This document shows positions 1-10,395 of a stretch of 44,422 bases of DNA, one piece after another. Source of the stretch: Burkholderiales bacterium (GTDB lineage: Bacteria; Pseudomonadota; Gammaproteobacteria; Burkholderiales; Casimicrobiaceae); contig JADLBN010000125.1 in assembly GCA_020847675.1 (NCBI GenBank), forward strand, positions 1 to 44,422, written 5' to 3'. Below the pieces are notes generated by a model that saw only the letters and a list, made by a program, of their open reading frames with translations, searched no databases and was not told the DNA's origin. The position numbers and the translations under genes were made by a program. Each line of letters begins with the position of its first letter. Position 1 is the first letter of the stretch.

Positions 1-1309
1 CCCCCCCCCCCCGACTCCGACCCCGAATTTCCACCGGGCTCGCGACCCCGCGGCCGCGCACCCTGCGACGGCCGGAACCGGAACCGCCGGCCTGCGCCAG
101 CCTTGAAGCGAGCGCCTCCAGCGACGCGAGGTTGTGGACCGGCAGGAAGTCGTCGACCCAGGGCAGCATCGCCCGGATGCCGGCGGGCCGAGCCTCGAAG
201 TCGGCGTAGCGCAACAGGGGGTTGAGCCAGACGAGCCTTCGGCACGACTTGGACAGCCGCTCCATCTCGGCGCCCAACCCCGCTCCCGCCTCGGCGTCGA
301 GCCCGTCGCTGATGATGAGCACCACGGCGTTCTGGCCGAGGAGCCGGCGCGACCAGCGCCGGTTGAACTCGGCGAGCGAGGCCCCGATGCGGGTTCCGCC
401 GGCCCAGTCCGCGACCGAACCGGCCACCCGCTGGAGCGCGACGTCCACGTCGCGGTGCTTGAGATGCCGCGTGACGTTGGTGAGGCGGGTGCCGAACAGC
501 AGCACGTGCACGCGGTGGCGATCGTTGGTGACGGCGTGCAGGAAGTGCAGCATCATCCGCGTGTAGCGGTCCATCGAGCCCGAGATGTCGCACAGCACGA
601 CGAGCGGCGGCGTCGCGCGCCTGTGCGCACGGAAAGCGAGGGGCGCCGAAGGTCCCGCCGCCCCGGCCATGCCCCGCATCGTCGCGCGCAGGTCGACGCG
701 CTGTCCGCGGTCGTCGCGGCGCAGGCGCCGCATCCTGATCTGCGGCAGCGGCAGCCTGAGCTTCGCGATCATCCGCTTGACTTCGGCGAGTTCGCCGGCG
801 GACATGGTCGCGAAGTCGTGCGTCTGCAGCACCTCGCGCGGCGAGAACGTGAACGCGGCGTCGAGCGTGACCTCGTCGTCCTCGCCCGACCGGGGATCGG
901 CCGGCGGGGGCGCCATCGCCTCGGCGAGCCGCGACGGGACATCCGGCAGCGCCGGGTCTTCGCCGGTCCTGCCCTGCACCGGCGGCAGCATCCCCGCCGC
1001 CATCTTCTCGAGCAGCTTCGGGTCGCGCCAGAAGAGGTCGAACGCGCGCTCGTAGAGGTCCAGGTGCTCGCGCCGGGAACAGAGCACCGCCGCGAGGGCC
1101 TCGCGAAAATCGGTGCGGTTCGCGAGACCCACCGCCTCGACCGCGGCGAGCGCGTCGAGAGTCTTCGCCGGACCCACCGGAATGCCCGCGCTCCGCAGCA
1201 CGCGCACGAAGTGCAGGACGTTCTCGGCCAGATACCCCTTCGGCGCGAGCGTCGCGAATCCGGAGCGCAACCGGGTGCCGCCGGCGGCCGGATTCGCCGC
1301 TGCGGTCAC
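1..1309 (-). CDS. coxE: CoxE-like VWA-domain protein, 3' end cut off by the window edge
   Basis: This is an accessory protein of the CoxE family, which together with a MoxR-type ATPase (CoxD) is thought to mature the active site of molybdenum hydroxylases of the CO-dehydrogenase type. The frame opens with a GTG at 1309 and stays open to position 1. Reading it by hand gives about 430 residues, with a C-terminal VWA domain whose metal site shows as VVLCDISGSMDRY (DxSxS), followed by GGTRIGASL and by VVLIISDGLD. The N-terminal half (ENVLHFVRVLR, LDLYERAFDLFW) is typical of the family. The start overlaps the stop of the kinase gene by 4 bp (GTGA), so translation is probably coupled. The last codons run into a 12-base C run at the window edge (read as poly-Gly), so the true C-terminus is missing. 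The assignment is firm at family level; membership in this cox cluster rests on context. Confidence 0.85.
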   Translation of the reverse strand, partial: MTAAANPAAGGTRLRSGFATLAPKGYLAENVLHFVRVLRSAGIPVGPAKTLDALAAVEAVGLANRTDFREALAAVLCSRREHLDLYERAFDLFWRDPKLLEKMAAGMLPPVQGRTGEDPALPDVPSRLAEAMAPPPADPRSGEDDEVTLDAAFTFSPREVLQTHDFATMSAGELAEVKRMIAKLRLPLPQIRMRRLRRDDRGQRVDLRATMRGMAGAAGPSAPLAFRAHRRATPPLVVLCDISGSMDRYTRMMLHFLHAVTNDRHRVHVLLFGTRLTNVTRHLKHRDVDVALQRVAGSVADWAGGTRIGASLAEFNRRWSRRLLGQNAVVLIISDGLDAEAGAGLGAEMERLSKSCRRLVWLNPLLRYADFEARPAGIRAMLPWVDDFLPVHNLASLEALASRLAQAGGSGSGRRRVRGRGVASPVEIRGRSRGGG

Positions 1310-3795
1310 GCCGACAGCTTCTTCAGCGCCTCGGCATCGCGCAGCACCGACTTGCGGCGGCTCTCCGGCGCACCGTAGAGCCCGGCGGGCGGGTTGGTGT
1401 CGAGTCGGCCGAGCACGGCCGGGTCGTTGCACGACGGGTCGAACCGGGCGCGCACTTCGCCCACCGACGAGGCACCCGGAACGAGGCACGGCTTCCCGAA
1501 CTTCGCGTTGAGCGGTGCGAGGATGCCCGAGGCGACGAGATCGGGCAGCGGACCGCTGCCGGCGAGTTCGAGTTCGAAGCTGCCGCCGGCGCCGGAGCGC
1601 GGCGCGATCGCGATCACCGCGGGAAGGCCGACGAACTCCGCCGCGAGCCGCGACGAGACGTCGCCCTGCGGCAGCCCCTCGATGACGAGCGTCACGCGCC
1701 GTGTCGTCGCGCTCGCGTGCTGGAGGAAGAAGTCGCGCGAGAACGCATCGGCGACGCCGGCGCCGATCGCCTTCAGCGCCTCCTCCTCGCTCGCCCAGCT
1801 CCCGCTGCCCTTCGGCAGCGCGGTCGCGTGGTAGATCTCCTCGCCGGTCGTGCGATCCACCGCCTTGAGCGTCCACGACGACAGCGCGTACTTGGTGACG
1901 ACGACGCCGGAGGCTTCGAGGCGCACCGACAGGCGCTTCACCGCGGCTTCGCCCGCGATCGACACGTCGGCCGTGCCGTCGTTCACGACGCGGAAGCCGA
2001 ACGAGCGGATCCTCTCGGCGAGCAGGTTCTCCGCCACCGACGAGCGCTGCGGCGGAATGTCGGGGCGCCCGGCGTCGCGCACCGCGATCGCGATCGACAC
2101 GCGCGGATCGCCGTTGGCGCGGATGACGTCGAGCCGCTCGGCGCGGGTCATCTCGTTCAGCGACTTCTGCACCGCCTTGACGTTCACGACGCCGACCGTG
2201 GTCATCGTCGCGACGCCGCTCGCGCCCACCACCGGCTCGCTCTCGCCGACCACCGCGCGGATGAAGTCGCCGCTTCGCGCGACGAGCTTCGCGTTCAGCG
2301 CATCGTAGTTTGCGGCGAGCGACTTGCGCTCGACGAGCAGGCCCAGCGCCTTCTCGACCAGTTGTCCGCGGGCGTCGGCCCGCAGGTCCCCTGCGAGCTT
2401 CGCCGGATCGCCCTTGTAGCGCGGATCGTTCGCGTCGGCGTAGCCGGCAGCGGCGATCAGAAGCGTGCCCGGTTCACCTCCCGCGGCGACGGGTGCCGCG
2501 GGAGCGGAGCCCGCGGAAGCTGCCGGAGCCGGCGAAGCCGCTGCGGCAGCCGGAGCCGTCGCCGCAGGAGCCGTTGCGGCACCCGGCGCCTGTGCCGAAG
2601 CGCCTGCGGCGGCGACCTGGGCGCCCTCGGCGGATACATGGCGCCCGGCCTGGCTCGTCACGCTCTGCATCCACCACCAGAGCCCGGCCGCGATCGCGAG
2701 CGCCGCGATGCCGACGACGATCAGCACGGCGGGAAGCTGCGAGCGCGGACGTGCCGACGTCGCGGTCGAGGTCGACGCCGACGATGCTGCGTAGGCCGGC
2801 TTTGGCGGCGGCGAAGCGGCCGGTGCCGCAGCCGCCGGCGCCGTAGCCGCCGGTGCCGGAGCGCTCGCAGCCGGAGCCACCGCCGGCCGGACGAGCGTCG
2901 ATGCAACCACCGTCGCGTCGCCGTCGTAGCCGGTCGAAGCGGTGGCACGCTCCGCCGCGCCGCGCGAAGGTGCAGGCATCGCGAGCGTTCGCAGCGCCTT
3001 CGCGAACTCCGCGGCGGAGGCATAGCGCTCCTCCGGCTTCTTCGCGAGCGCCTTGCGCAGGATCTCGTCCATCAGGTCGGGCAACTGGACGTTGAGCGTC
3101 GACGGCGGCAGAGGGTCCTCCTTCAGGACCTTCTGCATCGTGGTCGTCGACTGCGCGCCGCCGAACGGACGCTCGCCGGTGACGAACTGGTAGAGGACGA
3201 CACCGGTCGAGAACACGTCGGTGCGCGCGTCCACAGGCAGGCCCAGCACCTGCTCGGGCGACATCGACGAGGGCGTGCCCATCACCGTCCCCGCCTGCGT
3301 GAGCGAGGACGATTCGAGGTGCGCGATGCCGAAGTCGGCCACCTTGACCGAACCGTCGTCCTTGACGAACACGTTCGCCGGCTTGATGTCGCGGTGGATC
3401 ACGCCGTGCTCGTGCGAATACTGGAGCGCGTCGAGGATCTGCGCGGTCAGGCGGACCGCGTCGGCGGTCGAGAATCGCTCGCCCGCGTCGAATCGGGACT
3501 TGAGGTCGCGGCCCTCGACGAACTCCATCGCGATGAACGAGGTGCCTCCGTCCTCGCCGAAGTCGAAGATCGAGACGATGTTCGGATGATGCAGCCGGCC
3601 GGCGGCCTCGGCCTCGCGCCGGAATCGGGCGACGATCGAGGCGGCTTCGGCCGGCTCGAGGCGATCCGCACGGATCGTCTTGAGCGCCACGACGCGCTTG
3701 ATCATCGGGTCGTAGGCCTCGTAGACGACGCCCATCGCCCCGCGTCCGAGTTCGCGCCGCAGTTCGTAGCGGCCGAGTTGATCCTTCTCCGACAT
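1306..3795 (-). CDS. Transmembrane Ser/Thr protein kinase with a FlgT/LPP20-like periplasmic region
   Basis: 829 residues. A complete Hanks-type kinase domain fills about 9-272: glycine loop GRGAMG (18-23), catalytic Lys39, Glu61, HRDIKPANV (134-142), DFG (154-156) and SPE (179-181). The usual GTPxYM before the APE motif reads GTPSSM. An Ala/Pro-rich linker (about 273-350) leads to one membrane helix (about 354-376), then a second Ala/Pro linker (about 390-440). The periplasmic part (about 445-829) begins with an LPP20/FlgT-N-like pattern (ADARGQLVEKALGLLVE, then LVARSGDFIRAVV). It continues with a second alpha/beta unit at about 585-700 that resembles the neighbouring 230-residue protein. 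The kinase motifs are clear; the FlgT comparison is made by eye. The gene lies downstream of the CsgG-like gene, separated by a repeat array, and its stop overlaps the coxE start. It probably couples an envelope signal to cytoplasmic phosphorylation; the substrate is unknown. Confidence 0.9.
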   Translation of the reverse strand: MSEKDQLGRYELRRELGRGAMGVVYEAYDPMIKRVVALKTIRADRLEPAEAASIVARFRREAEAAGRLHHPNIVSIFDFGEDGGTSFIAMEFVEGRDLKSRFDAGERFSTADAVRLTAQILDALQYSHEHGVIHRDIKPANVFVKDDGSVKVADFGIAHLESSSLTQAGTVMGTPSSMSPEQVLGLPVDARTDVFSTGVVLYQFVTGERPFGGAQSTTTMQKVLKEDPLPPSTLNVQLPDLMDEILRKALAKKPEERYASAAEFAKALRTLAMPAPSRGAAERATASTGYDGDATVVASTLVRPAVAPAASAPAPAATAPAAAAPAASPPPKPAYAASSASTSTATSARPRSQLPAVLIVVGIAALAIAAGLWWWMQSVTSQAGRHVSAEGAQVAAAGASAQAPGAATAPAATAPAAAAASPAPAASAGSAPAAPVAAGGEPGTLLIAAAGYADANDPRYKGDPAKLAGDLRADARGQLVEKALGLLVERKSLAANYDALNAKLVARSGDFIRAVVGESEPVVGASGVATMTTVGVVNVKAVQKSLNEMTRAERLDVIRANGDPRVSIAIAVRDAGRPDIPPQRSSVAENLLAERIRSFGFRVVNDGTADVSIAGEAAVKRLSVRLEASGVVVTKYALSSWTLKAVDRTTGEEIYHATALPKGSGSWASEEEALKAIGAGVADAFSRDFFLQHASATTRRVTLVIEGLPQGDVSSRLAAEFVGLPAVIAIAPRSGAGGSFELELAGSGPLPDLVASGILAPLNAKFGKPCLVPGASSVGEVRARFDPSCNDPAVLGRLDTNPPAGLYGAPESRRKSVLRDAEALKKLSA

Positions 3796-3824
3796 CCGGC
3801 TCTCTCGGGTTGTTGAAAAGCGGT

Positions 3825-3964
3825 GGTGGGCGATGGGCGATGGGAGAACGCGCCGCGCCGGCGCAGGGTTTTCGCCTATCGCCGATCTCCTATCCGGGGG
3901 TTATGGGCTACAGGCCATGGGCGACAGGAAACGTACGCCCTCCCATCGCCTATCGCCCATCACC
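3825..3964. repeat. Palindromic array of degenerate 7-bp units
   Basis: The 170-bp gap between the CsgG-like gene and the kinase gene is filled by units resembling GGGCGAT or its complement. An outer arm at 3825-3846 (units like GGGCGATGGGCGATGGGAG) is nearly the reverse complement of the arm at 3940-3964. An inner pair, about 3872-3894 (CGCCTATCGCCGATC) and 3897-3927 (GGGCTACAGGCCATGGGCG), forms a second, looser inverted repeat. The transcript would fold into a long nested hairpin between two genes of one operon. It could reduce read-through into the kinase gene or stabilise the upstream message. Similar heptamer tracts occur between genes of other GC-rich proteobacteria, but I cannot name a family. 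Confidence 0.75.
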
Positions 3965-3965
3965 G

Positions 3966-4796
3966 CTACTTGTACTTGGTATCAATATCCCACACCGCCT
4001 TCTGCACCAGCCGCTGCACCATCGTGTCGAGTCCGACGCCGCCCTTCTGGCCCTGCGAGACGCCCAGCACCGAGGTCGACGTGGCACCGATCTCCATCTT
4101 CTCCTCGGTGTAGCCGGTCGCCACCTGCTCGGTGGTCTCGGCATTGATGATCTTGTAGCGCATGCCGACGATCCACACGCTCGTCGCCTCGTTGGTCTGC
4201 ACCGAACCGATCGCCTGGCCGCCGACGGCGCCGGCGCGCCAGCCGCCCCAGGAACCACTGAACGCACCCAGCGTCGAGGCGATGTTGCCGATCGCGCGGC
4301 CGTCGAAGCCCTCCTGCGCCTGCGCGATCTGCTCGGTCTTCAGGATGTCGAACTTGACCACGTACTTGGTGGTCTTGAGCTTGCCGATGCGAAGCATCTT
4401 GCGCGCCTGGTCGGGATCGCCCAGGTTGTAGGCGAGTTCGAACTCGCGCAGCGCGGAGCCCAGGTTGCTGCGCTCGAGCACCTGGAAATTGGCGTTCGAC
4501 AGCTCGACCTCGCCGAAATCGGCGATGTTGTTGGCGGTGACCTTCTGCAGGAAGTTGGCGTTGTTGCTCTTGATCTCGCCGGGGATCACCACCACGGCCG
4601 GTCCCTTCTTGCCCCGGTTCGGGTAGTCGATCGACTGGTAGAGCGCCTGGTCCGCGGACTGGTTGGCCTTCTGCGAGGTCGAACCGCCCGCCGTCGGCGA
4701 GGGATTGCCGAACGTCGGCTGAGCGAACGCGAGAGGAGCGGCGAGCGCGAACGCCGCGCCGGTCGCGAGGATGGCCTGGAGCCTCGGGGTTGTCAT
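3966..4796 (-). CDS. CsgG-family periplasmic/outer-membrane protein without a lipobox
   Basis: 276 residues. An N-terminal signal peptide with a likely cut after AFA (residues 23-25) is followed by a CsgG-type fold: a conserved FQVLERSNLGSALRE segment (104-118), KTTKYVVKFDILKTEQ (141-156), a glycine-rich stretch (about 165-195) and a C-terminal helix VQRLVQKAVWDI. In E. coli CsgG is the lipoprotein pore that exports curli subunits. This homologue has no cysteine at all, so it cannot be lipid-anchored in the same way and may be a soluble or otherwise anchored relative. A strong AAGGAG ribosome site precedes the ATG. It sits 30 bp after the 230-residue periplasmic protein gene and before the kinase gene. 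No curli subunit genes (csgA, csgB) are nearby, so a curli role is unlikely; an envelope sensing or export role with the kinase is inferred. Confidence 0.82.
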   Translation of the reverse strand: MTTPRLQAILATGAAFALAAPLAFAQPTFGNPSPTAGGSTSQKANQSADQALYQSIDYPNRGKKGPAVVVIPGEIKSNNANFLQKVTANNIADFGEVELSNANFQVLERSNLGSALREFELAYNLGDPDQARKMLRIGKLKTTKYVVKFDILKTEQIAQAQEGFDGRAIGNIASTLGAFSGSWGGWRAGAVGGQAIGSVQTNEATSVWIVGMRYKIINAETTEQVATGYTEEKMEIGATSTSVLGVSQGQKGGVGLDTMVQRLVQKAVWDIDTKYK

Positions 4797-4826
4797 CGGT
4801 CGGTCTCCTTCGGGGGAGTCGTCGGA

Positions 4827-5519
4827 TCAGGGTTTCCGGGGGGCGGCCTTCGCCGGCGCGCCGAGGCCCGCCTTGCGGCAGTAGTCGGCGTAGAGTTGCG
4901 CGACGATCTCGTCGGCCTGCTCGTTGACCAGTGTCAACGCCATGCGAGCAACATCCGCGCCCGCGTAGGACGCCGAGTGCGCCTCGGCGTGGGAGACCGG
5001 CCGGCCGTCGCTGCCGTTGAGCGTGAAGTCCATGTTCACCGAGACCTGGTTCACCCGCATCATCAGGTTCCCGGACGCCTGCGAGGTAACGTGCCCGCGC
5101 AGCACGAAGCTCGCGCCGAGGCGCTTTGCGGCGTTGAGGGCGGCGTCGGGGTCGTTGCGCATCGTCGCCTCGATCTCGGCCTGGGCGATCTGGCGCCGGA
5201 TCTCCTCCGGCGTGTAGGTCCGCAGCCCCACTTCCCGCAGGCGCCGGTTGATCGCTTCGTAGACCGGCCCGTGGTTCTGCTGGTGCCAGTAGGCCCAGCC
5301 GTTGCTGCGCTCCTCGCCGATCACCACCATGATCTTCTTGTTCTTGAGGTCCGCCCGGCAGGGCGTCGACAACTGGACCGCCATGCGGTCGGCGCGAGCC
5401 TCGCCCGCCGCCTTGTCCTCGTTGTCGGCCTGGTCGAACTTGAACCCCTGCGCGGGGGCGAAGGCAGGGATGAGCGAAAGCGCCAGGGCCGCCGCCGTCA
5501 GCAAGGGTGGGAAGCGCAT
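4827..5519 (-). CDS. Exported protein of unknown function, FlgT/LPP20-like features
   Basis: 230 residues from the ATG at 5519; this start is chosen because it begins a clear signal peptide (MRFPPLLTAAALALSLIPAFAPAQ), although the frame stays open further upstream. The mature part has an alpha/beta pattern: a strand KKIMVVIGEE, a helix YEAINRRLREVGLR (88-100), a strand-rich block with RGHVTSQASG, and a helix of repeated alanines ending at QLYADYC. Two cysteines (54 and 214) could pair in the periplasm. By eye the same order of elements is present in residues 585-700 of the kinase encoded two genes downstream. I do not recognise a named family with certainty; it looks like the small partners found with CsgG-type proteins. 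The 116-bp gap to coxD upstream contains a weak promoter candidate. Confidence 0.75.
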   Translation of the reverse strand: MRFPPLLTAAALALSLIPAFAPAQGFKFDQADNEDKAAGEARADRMAVQLSTPCRADLKNKKIMVVIGEERSNGWAYWHQQNHGPVYEAINRRLREVGLRTYTPEEIRRQIAQAEIEATMRNDPDAALNAAKRLGASFVLRGHVTSQASGNLMMRVNQVSVNMDFTLNGSDGRPVSHAEAHSASYAGADVARMALTLVNEQADEIVAQLYADYCRKAGLGAPAKAAPRKP

Positions 5520-5553
5520 GGGATGGGTGTCGCGGGAAGGCGGACAACCGGGA

Positions 5554-5582
5554 AGGCTAGCGCATTGCCGCGCGGGAATCCA
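5554..5582 (-). promoter_or_regulatory. Weak candidate promoter for the kinase/CsgG cassette
   Basis: On the minus strand a TGGATT box and a TAGCCT box are separated by exactly 17 bp, 35 bp ahead of the ATG of the exported protein. Both boxes match the sigma-70 consensus only partly. If real, it would let the three-gene cassette and coxE be transcribed apart from the coxSLMD genes. Confidence 0.3.
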
Positions 5583-5635
5583 CACGGCGCGCCGAAAGGC
5601 GAAGATTCGCGTCCGGTGGAAGCGGCCGGACCGGT

Positions 5636-6568
5636 TCAGGCCAGGGAACCGCCCGCCTGCTGCGCCTGCGCGACCAGCCTCGCGGCGACTTCGGGCGTGA
5701 TCGCCCCGACGTCGTCCTGGTACTTGAGCAGCACCCCGATCGTGTCGCCGACGACCGCGGGGTCGAGCGCTATCCGATCGAGCGTCACCAGCGCCTCGGC
5801 CCAGTCGAGCGTTTCGGCGACCCCGGGTGCCTTGAACAGGTCCATCGAGCGGAGCTGCTGCGTGAACGCGACGATCTCGCGCGCAAGCGATTCCGGCGCG
5901 CGCGGGGCCTTGCGCCGCACGATCGCGAGTTCGCGCCCGGTGTCCGGATAGTCGACCCAGTGGTAGAGGCAGCGGCGCTTGATCGCGTCGTGGATCTCGC
6001 GCGTCCGGTTCGAGGTGATCACGACCGCCGGTGGCTCTGCCGCGCGGATCGGGCCAAGTTCGGGGATCGTCACCTGGAACTCGGAAAGCACTTCCAGCAG
6101 GTAGGCTTCGAACGGCTCGTCGGCGCGGTCGAGTTCGTCGATCAGGAGTACCGGCGCCACGCCGTCGTGCGGCGCGAGCGCCTCGAGGATCGGACGGCGC
6201 AGCAGGAATCGGGGCGTGAAGATGTCGTGCGCGAGTTCGTCGCGCTTCACGTGGCCGCCGGCTTCCGCGAGGCGGATCTCGATCATCTGGCGCGGGTAGT
6301 TCCACTCGTACACCGCCGACGCGGTGTCGAGCCCCTCGTAGCACTGGAGCCGGACGAGCCTCCGGCCCTGCGCCGCCGCAAGGACCTTCGCGATCTCGGT
6401 CTTGCCGACGCCGGCTTCCCCTTCGAGGAACAGCGGCCGGCCGAGCTTGAGCGACAGGTAGACCGCGGTCGCGAGACGCCGGTCGGCGACGTAGTCCTGC
6501 GACGCCAGGAGATCGAGCGTCGCATCGACGGTCGCGGGAGGACCCACCGGCAGCAGCGGCGCGTTCAT
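5636..6568 (-). CDS. coxD: MoxR-family AAA+ ATPase, CoxD-like
   Basis: 310 residues. MoxR-type AAA+ ATPase with Walker A GEAGVGKT (50-57), Walker B LLIDELD (141-147), a sensor region VVITSNRTRE (about 182-191) and an arginine cluster IKRRC (about 196-200). In characterised CO-dehydrogenase clusters CoxD acts as a chaperone-type ATPase needed for assembly of the copper/sulfur-modified molybdenum centre, working with CoxE. Here it follows coxM after about 100 bp, and its presumed partner coxE lies more than 4 kb further on, behind the kinase cassette. MoxR ATPases usually pair with a VWA protein; besides CoxE, a BatA-like VWA gene at 11.7-12.7 kb also lacks a neighbouring ATPase, so a shared partner is conceivable. 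Confidence 0.88.
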   Translation of the reverse strand: MNAPLLPVGPPATVDATLDLLASQDYVADRRLATAVYLSLKLGRPLFLEGEAGVGKTEIAKVLAAAQGRRLVRLQCYEGLDTASAVYEWNYPRQMIEIRLAEAGGHVKRDELAHDIFTPRFLLRRPILEALAPHDGVAPVLLIDELDRADEPFEAYLLEVLSEFQVTIPELGPIRAAEPPAVVITSNRTREIHDAIKRRCLYHWVDYPDTGRELAIVRRKAPRAPESLAREIVAFTQQLRSMDLFKAPGVAETLDWAEALVTLDRIALDPAVVGDTIGVLLKYQDDVGAITPEVAARLVAQAQQAGGSLA

Positions 6569-6670
6569 CGCGAAGCCTGCGACGTCATCGAAGCGCGCGA
6601 AGTCGGCCGGCGTCGACCGGCAGCGCGCTCCCTCCGGCGCGAGACGCGCACCCGCCTCCTCGCCGCGCGC

Positions 6671-7462
6671 TCAATGCGTCGCGCCGACCGCCCGCGACGC
6701 CATCACCGACACCAGATGGGCGCGGTAGGCCGCCGTTCCATGCAGGTCGCTGTTGAGGTTCGCGTCGGGCGTCCTGACTGCCTTCGCGGCCGCGGCGCTC
6801 CAGTCCTTCGCGAGGGCGTCCTCGTGCGCCTTGCTGCGGAACACGGACGACGCGGCCCCGGTGACGGCCACGCGCGTGCCCGCCCCGGTCTGCGCGACGA
6901 ACACGCCGACCAGCGCGAAGCGCGAAGCCGGATTCGGGAACTTCGCGTATGCCGCCTTCTTCGGGACCGGGAAGCTCACCGCGGTGATGATCTCGCCCTC
7001 GGCGAGCGCCGTCTCGAACATGCCCTTGAAGAATTCGTCGGCCGCGATCTTCCGCTTGCTCGTGACCACCGTCGCGCCGAGTCCGAGCACCGCGGCCGGC
7101 CAGTCGGCGGCCGGATCGTTGTTCGCGATCGACCCGCCGATCGTGCCCATGTTGCGCACCTGCCGGTCGCCGATCCCTTCCGCGAGCGCCGCCAGCGCGG
7201 GAATCGCGCCCTTGACCGCTTCGGACGACACGACGTCCGCGTGGCGCGTCATCGCGCCGATCACCAGGTGGTCGCCTTCCCGGCGGATACCCTTGAGTTC
7301 CGGGATGCCGGAAAGATCGACGAGGTGGCCGGGCTGCGCGAGCCGGAGTTTCATCGCGGCGACGAGGCTCTGGCCGCCCGCGAGCGCCTTGCCGCCGGTC
7401 CTGGAGAGCGCGGCGGAGGCGTCGGCGACCGACTTGGCGTGATGCAGTTCGAATGCGTACAT
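6671..7462 (-). CDS. coxM: Molybdenum hydroxylase FAD-binding medium subunit (form II cox type)
   Basis: 263 residues, somewhat shorter than the 280-290 common for CoxM. It carries both FAD-contact motifs of the family: AGGQS (28-32) and [17 protein letters not shown] (107-123). In the heterotrimer this subunit passes electrons from the iron-sulfur subunit to the quinone pool or another acceptor. The gene follows coxL after 12 bp, giving the order S-L-M that is usual for form II clusters (form I is M-S-L). No signal peptide is visible, as expected for a cytoplasmic or membrane-associated enzyme. The family is clear; the substrate is open, as for coxL. Confidence 0.92.
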
Positions 7463-7474
7463 GGTCGCTCCCGG

Positions 7475-9844
7475 TCAGGCGTGCTTCGCGGACTGGATCG
7501 CCGCCCACACCCGGTGCGGCGTGGCCGGCATGTCGAAATGCTTGACGCCGACGGCGGCGAGCGCGTCCATCACGGCGTTCATGAACGCGGCCGGCGCGCC
7601 GATCGCCCCCGCCTCGCCACAACCTTTCGCACCCAGCGGATTGTGCGTGCAGGGCGTGACCTTGGTGCCGACCTTGAACGACGGCAGGTCGTCCGCACGC
7701 GGCATCGCGTAGTCCATGTAGGTGCCGGTCAGGAGCTGCCCCGACTTCGGGTCGTAGACGCAGTTCTCGAGCATCGCCTGCCCGAGGCCCTGCGCGACGC
7801 CTCCGTGGACCTGCCCCTCGACGATCATCGGATTGATGATGTTGCCGAAGTCGTCGCAGGCGCAGAACTGCACGACCTTCACCACGCCGGTGTCGGGATC
7901 GATCTCGACCTCGCACACGTGGGTGCCGGCCGGGAACGTGAAGTTGGTCGGATCGTAGAACGCGGTCTCGTTCAGGCCCGGTTCGAGCCGGTCCAGCGGA
8001 TAGTTGTGCGGCACGTAGGCCGCGAGCGCGACCTCGCCGAACGCCTTGCTGCGGTCGGTGCCCGCGACGGTGAACTTGCCGTCCCTGAACTCGATGTCGG
8101 TCTCCGCCGCCTCGAGCAGGTGCGCCGCGATCTTCTTGCCCTTGTCGATCACCTTGTCGACCGCCTTCACGATCGCCGTGCCGCCCACCGCGAGCGAGCG
8201 CGACCCGTAGGTGCCCATGCCGAACACCACCCTCCCGGTGTCGCCGTGCACGACGTCGACGTTCTCGACCGGGATGCCCAGCCGCCCCGCGACCACCTGC
8301 GCGAACGTCGTCTCGTGACCCTGGCCGTGGCTGTGCGAGCCGGTGAACACGGTCACGCTGCCCGTCGGATGGACGCGGACCTCTCCTGCTTCGAAGAGTC
8401 CCGCCCTCGCACCGAGCGCGCCCGCGATGTTCGACGGCGCGAGTCCGCACGCCTCGATGTAGGACGCGTAGCCCAGGCCGCGAAGCTTGCCGTGCTTCGC
8501 CGACTCGGCCTTCCGGGCCGCGAAGCCCTTCACGTCCGCCATCCGGTTCGCCTCGTCGAGGCAGGCATCGTAGCCGCCGGTGTCGTAGAGCAGCGCCACC
8601 GGCGTCTGGTACGGGAACGTGCGGATGAAGTTGCGCCGCCGCAGTTCGTCCTGCGCGATGCCGGTCTCGGCCGCCGCCTGGTGGACGATGCGCTCGACGA
8701 CGTAGGTGGCCTCGGGCCGCCCGGCGCCGCGGTACGCGTCGACCGGCGCGGTGTTGGTGAACGCCGCGGTCACCTCGGCGTAGATGGCCGGCGTCGTGTA
8801 CTGGCCCGCCAGCAGCGTCGCGTAGAGGATGGTGGGAATGCACGAGGCGAAGGTCGACAGGTACGCGCCCATCGCCGCCACCGTGTGGACCCGAAGCGCG
8901 AGGAACTTGCCGTCCTTGTCGAGAGCGAGTTCCGCGCGGGTGACGTGGTCGCGGCCGTGCGCGTCGGAGAGGAACGACTCGCTGCGCTCGCACGCCCACT
9001 TGATCGGGCGGTTGACGCGCTTCGCCGCCCAGACCATCGCCGTTTCCTCGGCGTACAGGTAGATCTTCGAACCGAAGCCGCCGCCGACGTCGGGCGCGAT
9101 CACGCGCACCTTGTGCTCGGGGAGCCCCAGCACGAACGCCGTCATCAGGAGCCGCTCGACGTGCGGATTCTGGCTCGTCGTGTAGAGCGTGTACGCGTCG
9201 TCCGCGCGGCTGTACGAGGCGACCGCCGCGCGCGGCTCGATCGCGTTGGGGATCAGCCGGTTGTTGACGAGGTCGAGCCGGGTCACGTGCGCGGCCTTCG
9301 AGAAGGCCGCGTCGACCGCCGCCTTGTCGCCCAGCGCCCACGTGTAGCACTTGTTGCCCGGCGCCTCGTCGTGGATCTGCGGCGCTCCCGGCTTCAGCGC
9401 GTCGATCGGGTTGACGACCGAGGGCAGCACTTCGTAGTCGACCTCGATCAGCTCCGCGGCGTCCTTCGCCTGCGCGAGCGTCTCGGCGATTACCAGCGCG
9501 ACGTGATCGCCGACGTAGCGCACCTTGCCCTTTGCGAGGACCGGGTGAGGCGGCTCCTTCATCGGCGTGCCGTCGGTGCTGTGGATGAGCCAGCCGCAGG
9601 GCAGCCCGTTCACCCCTTCGAGGTCGGCACCGGTGTAGACCGCCACCACGCCGGGCGACGCCTTCGCCTTCGCCGTGTCGATGCCGCGGATCTTCGCGTG
9701 CGCGTGCGGCGAGCGCAGGAAGAACGCCTGCGTCTGGTTGGGCTGGTTGACGTCGTCGGTGTACTGGCCCGTGCCGGTGAGGAAGCGCGCGTCCTCCTTG
9801 CGCCGGACCGCCTTGCCGATCACGCCCTCTTCGTTCGCGCCCAT
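7475..9844 (-). CDS. coxL: Molybdenum hydroxylase large subunit, form II CoxL type
   Basis: 789 residues, a full-length xanthine-oxidase/CO-dehydrogenase-family catalytic subunit. Visible landmarks are GGGFGSK (254-260), the active-site loop AYRGAGR (370-376), [11 protein letters not shown] (502-512) and the catalytic glutamate in GCGEAG (741-746, Glu744). True form I CO dehydrogenases carry AYxCSFR with a cysteine that binds copper. AYRGAGR marks form II, whose members only partly oxidise CO and may act on other aldehydes, heterocycles or purines. The gene lies 7 bp after coxS and 12 bp before coxM. The subunit should bind molybdopterin-cytosine dinucleotide. Substrate cannot be read from sequence; the symbol denotes family, not proven CO oxidation. 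Confidence 0.93.
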
Positions 9845-9851
9845 GGCCGCC

Positions 9852-10325
9852 TCACTTCCCCATCGCGGCGGCGCCGTGCTGCACCGCCTTGACGATGTTG
9901 TGGTAACCGGTGCAGCGGCACAGGTTGCCTTCGAGTTCCTCGCGGATCTTCGCCTCCGAGGCCTTCGGATGGCGGTTCACGAGGTCGATCGCGCTCATCA
10001 CCATGCCGGTCGTGCAGAAGCCGCACTGCAGCCCGTGGCACTCCTTGAACGCAGCCTGCATCGGGTGCAGCGTGCCGTCGGCGGCGGCGATGCCTTCGAT
10101 CGTCACCACCTTCGCGCCCTCCATCTGCGCGGCGAGGACGTTGCAGGCCTTCACGGCGCGGTCGTCGACGAGCACGGTGCAGGCGCCGCACTGCGCGGTG
10201 TCGCACCCGACGTGCGTCCCGGTGAGGCCCAGGTGGTTGCGCAGGAGTTCGACCAGGAGGGTCCTCGGATCGACCGTCGCGTGGACGGGCTTGCCGTTGA
10301 CCGAAAGCGACAGCGTGACAGCCAC
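9852..10325 (-). CDS. coxS: Molybdenum hydroxylase 2Fe-2S small subunit (form II cox type)
   Basis: 157 residues from a GTG at 10325, chosen because AAGGAG lies 6 bp ahead and because the length fits the family; the frame itself stays open upstream. Two iron-sulfur clusters are fully ligated: a plant-ferredoxin-type site with Cys41, Cys46, Cys49 and Cys61 ([10 protein letters not shown]) and an alpha-helical site with Cys101, Cys104, Cys136 and Cys138 (CGFC and CRC). The protein relays electrons from the molybdenum centre to FAD in CoxM. It is the first gene of the cluster; a well-spaced promoter candidate lies about 70-100 bp upstream. Confidence 0.93.
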
Positions 10326-10395
10326 GGGGTTCTCCTTCGAGGGCGTTGCGACGGGATCGGTCCGCGGTTGCGGCGGCGGCCGAGGATTTCCTCCG

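Follow-up and report, generated by a model that had tools for sequence, protein, structure and literature searches.

Three envelope and kinase genes within a cox operon

The window analysed here is the whole 44,422-nt stretch of contig JADLBN010000125.1 (GCA_020847675.1), from a Burkholderiales bacterium of the family Casimicrobiaceae; below, L, G and C numbers designate loci, genomes and contigs of the window genome, respectively. The minus strand carries a molybdenum-hydroxylase (cox) operon in which three genes, encoding two exported proteins and a transmembrane Ser/Thr kinase, lie between coxD and coxE (Table 1). Their identity, order and common strand are as a first-pass annotation of this DNA had described them. 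The three genes are probably an independent, conserved envelope-to-cytoplasm signalling module rather than a dedicated part of the cox system.

The cox cluster has the coxSLM order and the AYRGAGR motif in CoxL by which form II is recognised (as defined in PMC7645674), and its large subunit scores 681 bits with the aerobic CO dehydrogenase model TIGR02416, below the cut-off of 991. The window thus has the gene order and motif of form II coxSLM-D-E operons but differs from the others in the three module genes between D and E, an arrangement that this survey met in no more than five genomes, all of a single genus. The proposed interval for the three genes (1306..5519) starts at the kinase stop, and the coxE start codon (GTG, 1309-1307) overlaps the kinase gene. 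No transcriptional break before coxE, which the first-pass annotation had named as evidence against a link, was found: the kinase gene and coxE share a GTGA overlap, consensus scans gave 0 promoter-like sites in 1200-6700, and the sole minus-strand terminator-like site of the scan lies within the kinase gene. The repetitive extragenic palindrome (REP)-like repeat in the gap before the kinase gene has 28-nt inverted arms that are 93% complementary, and its 16 partial matches outside the window fall on 12 further contigs of the genome. The contig opens with a stretch of plus-strand C (window positions 1-20; G when read along coxE), probably an assembly edge.

Table 1. Features of the cox operon and the inserted genes in the window
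Feature	Position (nt)	Strand	Basis
coxS, [2Fe-2S] subunit	9852..10337 (start approximate)	-	Fer2_2 E 4.5e-32
coxL, molybdopterin subunit	7475..9844	-	MoCoBD_2 E 5.7e-92; AYRGAGR at residue 370
coxM, FAD subunit	6671..7462	-	FAD_binding_5 E 5.7e-49
coxD, MoxR-type AAA ATPase	5636..6568	-	AAA_5 E 5.4e-10; 265 bits with the MadB-family ATPase model (cut-off 475)
Exported LpoB/FlgT-M-like protein, 230 aa	4827..5519	-	start resembling a signal peptide; Cys54 and Cys214 invariant among aligned members
Exported CsgG-fold protein, 276 aa	3966..4796	-	signal-peptide-like start, without lipobox cysteine
CsgG-kinase gap with dispersed palindromic REP-like repeat	3796..3965	-	repeat copies elsewhere in genome
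Transmembrane Hanks-type Ser/Thr kinase, 829 aa	1306..3795	-	kinase 10-259, transmembrane ~354-376, modelled periplasmic part 441-829
GTGA overlap of coxE start (GTG 1309-1307) with kinase stop	1306..1309	-	overlap computed
coxE, VWA protein, no stop before contig end	2..1309	-	VWA_CoxE E 5.3e-65

The exported proteins and the receptor kinase

Two exported proteins and a receptor kinase had been proposed, and both parts of this proposal are borne out by signal-peptide-like and hydrophobic stretches and by a strong Pkinase match (PF00069, E 3e-51, residues 10-259; 174.8 bits against a cut-off of 31.7). The signal peptides were assigned by visual inspection and a hydrophobicity scan rather than by a predictor. 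The alignments comprised the window protein plus 54 ectodomain, 61 CsgG-like and 64 exported-protein rows (from 54, 68 and 69 usable).

The predicted structure of the 276-aa protein has the fold of CsgG, the curli secretion lipoprotein. Its best 20 Foldseek matches are all chains of CsgG/curli-complex entries, with a pLDDT (confidence score) of only 60.7 for the model, in which long strands occupy residues 199-218 and 224-243 while residues 176-200 and other loops have low confidence. Pfam CsgG (PF03783) is found at E<=0.1 in 51 of the 62 members of the alignment (best 1.3e-5), but the window protein itself (E 0.011, 15.6 bits) falls below the gathering score of 20.8 and, unlike CsgG, has no lipobox cysteine. 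The earlier CsgG-family label holds for the fold and not for the window protein at the Pfam cut-off. The label FlgT/LPP20-like given to the 230-aa protein needs revision, since FlgT_M is found in just one and LPP20 in none of the 65 alignment members. LpoB (PF13036), a peptidoglycan-synthase activator, comes nearer, with a weak profile match in 45 of the 65 (best 3.4e-5). The window protein differs from LpoB in scoring below the gathering threshold (14.9 against 22.3 bits) and in its invariant cysteine pair, C54/C214. A sequence-profile search of solved structures gave no match at a meaningful E-value for the module proteins. The idea that the three are recognisable sequence copies of each other was rejected (profile comparison probabilities 0.13, 3.5 and 5.3).

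Among the transmembrane Ser/Thr kinases of Gram-negative bacteria there are many with neither a known signal nor known partners. The module kinase is of the Hanks type and has the catalytic K, HRD and DFG elements, with K39, D136 and D154 invariant in 10 of 10 sequences. Its best hydrophobic stretch begins at residue 354, and from the position of this transmembrane segment the kinase domain would be cytoplasmic and the residues from about 380 on periplasmic. Over residues 441-829 the predicted structure has three domains and looks FlgT-like, although FlgT is absent among the best 50 Foldseek matches listed for the ectodomain and Pfam scans assign it no reliable family. In contrast to FlgT itself, the flagellar H-ring protein (3w1e), the ectodomain has no sequence-family match and is fused to a kinase. 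The protein shares a Hanks kinase, a transmembrane helix and an extracytoplasmic part with PknB/Stk1-type kinases, and NF033483 matches residues 8-398 with 337 bits. This is under the 450-bit cut-off, and the Pfam scans of the kinase show no PASTA family, so the window protein is not classed as a PASTA receptor kinase; its modelled FlgT-like ectodomain is a further difference. PknS of Xanthomonas citri is likewise a transmembrane Hanks kinase of a Gram-negative bacterium whose signalling requires the periplasmic part; in PknS, however, that part consists of three TPRs and the target is a sigma factor, and the word "lipoprotein" does not occur in that text (PMC13147305).

Distribution of the module within and outside cox operons

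The module is a conserved gene set and is mainly betaproteobacterial. Scanning named genomes yielded 74 loci, and because the three genes recur together in these they are not chance open reading frames. The titles of 66 loci name Betaproteobacteria or a subgroup; the other eight read bacterium, proteobacterium, Pseudomonadota, or Gamma- or Deltaproteobacteria. The order exported protein-CsgG-kinase is found in 64 of the 74 loci, the kinase comes first in L089, and nine are scored as incomplete, among them L102 with the order CsgG-kinase-exported protein; these order and neighbour counts apply a 45% identity floor, below which genes are uncounted. Some loci have a small gene with a signal-peptide-like start shortly before the exported-protein gene, one type (L068:6784-7236) in 19 of the 74 and another (L042:848-1477) in six; these genes could encode a cargo or partner.

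The first-pass annotation had treated the module as part of a molybdenum-hydroxylase system. The survey did not support this: the cassette lies mostly away from cox genes, an outcome that the annotation itself had set beforehand as refuting the link. Where there is room upstream, coxD is present in three loci and is not found within 2 kb in the remaining 63 of 66, and coxE lies downstream in two of the 32 loci that have room there and an ectodomain at least 45% identical. Across 200 genomes of the order the exported protein was matched in 15, strongly in 12 (the window genome included). These matches yielded 14 regions, and all 11 strong ones carry the module, two being cut by contig ends; cox genes are absent from the 11 except for one 32% MoxR-type match. 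In the window's family the exported protein was matched in 22 of 64 genomes, and a phylum-wide ectodomain search of 398 genomes gave two strong matches (the window genome and G374) and two genomes with weak ones.

Nineteen family loci were compared, and four lie in cox operons (G238, G256, G239 and G255, the last split over two contigs that each show one junction), which with the window makes five genomes, all of the window's genus. No cox gene was seen in the other 15, of which L123 is too short to judge upstream. The reciprocal comparison agrees: coxE is present in 35 of the 64 family genomes, and coxD adjoins it in 19 of the 20 coxE loci compared, the twentieth being that of G255. A tblastn search of 39 other coxD loci of the order (drawn from 48 places, leaving out the window, G083 and seven others) found no kinase. 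The cassette as a general cox accessory set was therefore rejected.

The best reading of the link to cox is one insertion event that a single clade has retained. The five inserted cassettes form one clade with 100/100 support. The ordinary coxD-coxE junction is a four-base overlap in 11 of the 16 cases computed, and among the four inserted loci measured (the window, G256, G255 and G239) an identical four-base overlap joins the kinase gene to coxE in the window and G256, with spacings of +7 in G255 and +28 in G239. In G245, coxD and coxE are adjacent and the module has no match; in the cox tree G245 groups with the window, G238 and G256 at 100/100 support, and a clade made up of the five inserted genomes alone is rejected (p-AU 0.00015). 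One gain followed by one loss or replacement is therefore simplest. The empty site in G245, a genome 86% complete and covering 41% of the tree columns, could result from a precise loss, from recombination that replaced the cox segment, or from a gap in the assembly; the cox tree does not settle the relation between the two inserted sub-clades. The coxD-coxE boundary is permissive, since elsewhere in the order 300 bases or more separate the two genes at 8 of 34 loci. The locus clearly illustrates how a metabolic operon can take in a signalling module and be left with near-seamless junctions.

Other genes occur between coxM and coxD. G256 has there a gene for a DUF1631 protein (L125:11624-13981), another insertion in the same operon, and G247 has a different Ser/Thr kinase with a PEGA domain together with a PP2C phosphatase, an FHA protein and a TPR-like protein (L171:4443-8480).

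Partners and the proposed signalling path

FHA domains bind phosphothreonine. A class III adenylate/guanylate cyclase whose C-terminal domain is FHA is encoded convergently to the module, within 3 kb past the kinase, in 33 of the 45 judgeable loci, those of the 74 in which the ectodomain was located and followed by 2.5 kb of sequence. One example is L041:7221-8123 (minus strand, identified with Pfam), and the 32 further loci are among L044-L099; L094, which has another cyclase on the opposite strand without FHA, was left out of the count. Nine of the 12 loci without the FHA-cyclase are in the window's family, so the figure outside the family is 33 of 36. Strain GR16-43 and Candidatus Desulfobacillus denitrificans have the module with the FHA-cyclase next to it, whereas Caenimonas koreensis has the module alone. 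Since FHA binds phosphothreonine, the cyclase would be the natural reader of the module kinase. Within the family, G225 keeps the kinase and FHA-cyclase pair (L189). The window genome has one full-length FHA-cyclase (C34:1177-2034), away from the module; its gene is divergent from that of a Cache-HAMP transmembrane Ser/Thr kinase (the two genes at L197:1162-3918), and G238 and G256 have a cyclase-FHA/kinase pair in the same layout. Co-occurrence of the module with a full-length FHA-cyclase (11/3/1/7 for the genus, Fisher p 0.006 with kinship ignored; 16/6/5/37 for the family) is not used as main evidence because the cyclases of the window genome, G238 and G256 adjoin a different kinase, kinship is uncorrected, and G225 was scored module-negative though it holds the kinase end.

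Two other genomes of the order have a variant of the set. In L028 (9543-11060, minus strand) and L029 (9787-11274, minus strand) an exported caspase-like (Peptidase C14) protein is encoded directly before CsgG-like genes, two of them in L028, and its C-terminal part matches the exported-protein profile (E 3.6e-27 and 5.9e-23, respectively). No module-type kinase was seen in these regions. Judged from gene content, the caspase-like and kinase variants suggest that the constant core is an envelope pair with exchangeable outputs.

In the proposed path, the CsgG-fold and LpoB-like proteins would form or monitor an outer-membrane/periplasmic assembly, the FlgT-like ectodomain of the kinase would read the state of that assembly, and FHA proteins, in most species a cyclase, would read the phosphorylated kinase. 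In the window the cox genes would be at most co-expressed with the module. A complete relay of this kind from the outer envelope to a second messenger, in which the envelope pair would elsewhere in the order be coupled instead to an exported caspase-like peptidase, and the module would in one clade have been wired into a molybdenum-enzyme operon, is put forward tentatively.

The kinase might instead sense envelope state and, with CoxD or CoxE as its phosphorylation target, adjust how the form II molybdenum hydroxylase matures or how active it is. Retention of the arrangement in five genomes, the overlap with coxE in the window and G256, and the other kinase-PP2C-FHA set, which lies within a cox operon of G247 from the same genus, speak for such control, which is nonetheless improbable: the module is mostly without cox elsewhere and cox operons are mostly without the module, G245 has coxD next to coxE although it groups with three of the five, and the two genes are separated in other loci where no kinase was matched. 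Passive hitch-hiking, by which a permissive operon received the module and the two are co-transcribed without regulatory effect either way, is somewhat less doubtful but still unlikely. It fits one clade of insertions and the DUF1631 gene of G256, as well as the neighbours of the module, which differ between family sub-lineages and indicate that it sits at several places; long retention and near-seamless junctions, on the other hand, suggest that co-expression is at least tolerated.

In a further reading, along the lines of curli-type secretion, the CsgG-fold protein would be a secretion pore and the kinase would control export through it. The predicted fold, the long modelled strands and the small upstream genes as possible cargo are consistent with a pore. 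The missing lipobox, the low-confidence loops and the lack of any such small gene in the window's coxD-module interval count against it, and we consider it a poor candidate.

The module itself looks undescribed, the gene set not having been found in the literature searched (open-licence full text, judged by title and start of abstract). Its link to the molybdenum enzyme is probably only positional, which corrects the reading of the set as part of molybdenum-hydroxylase maturation. The set is of more interest as a signalling module in its own right than as a component of the cox operon. As a conserved gene set it points to likely partners, which are the CsgG-fold and LpoB-like proteins outside and an FHA-cyclase inside, and the signal path is therefore testable.
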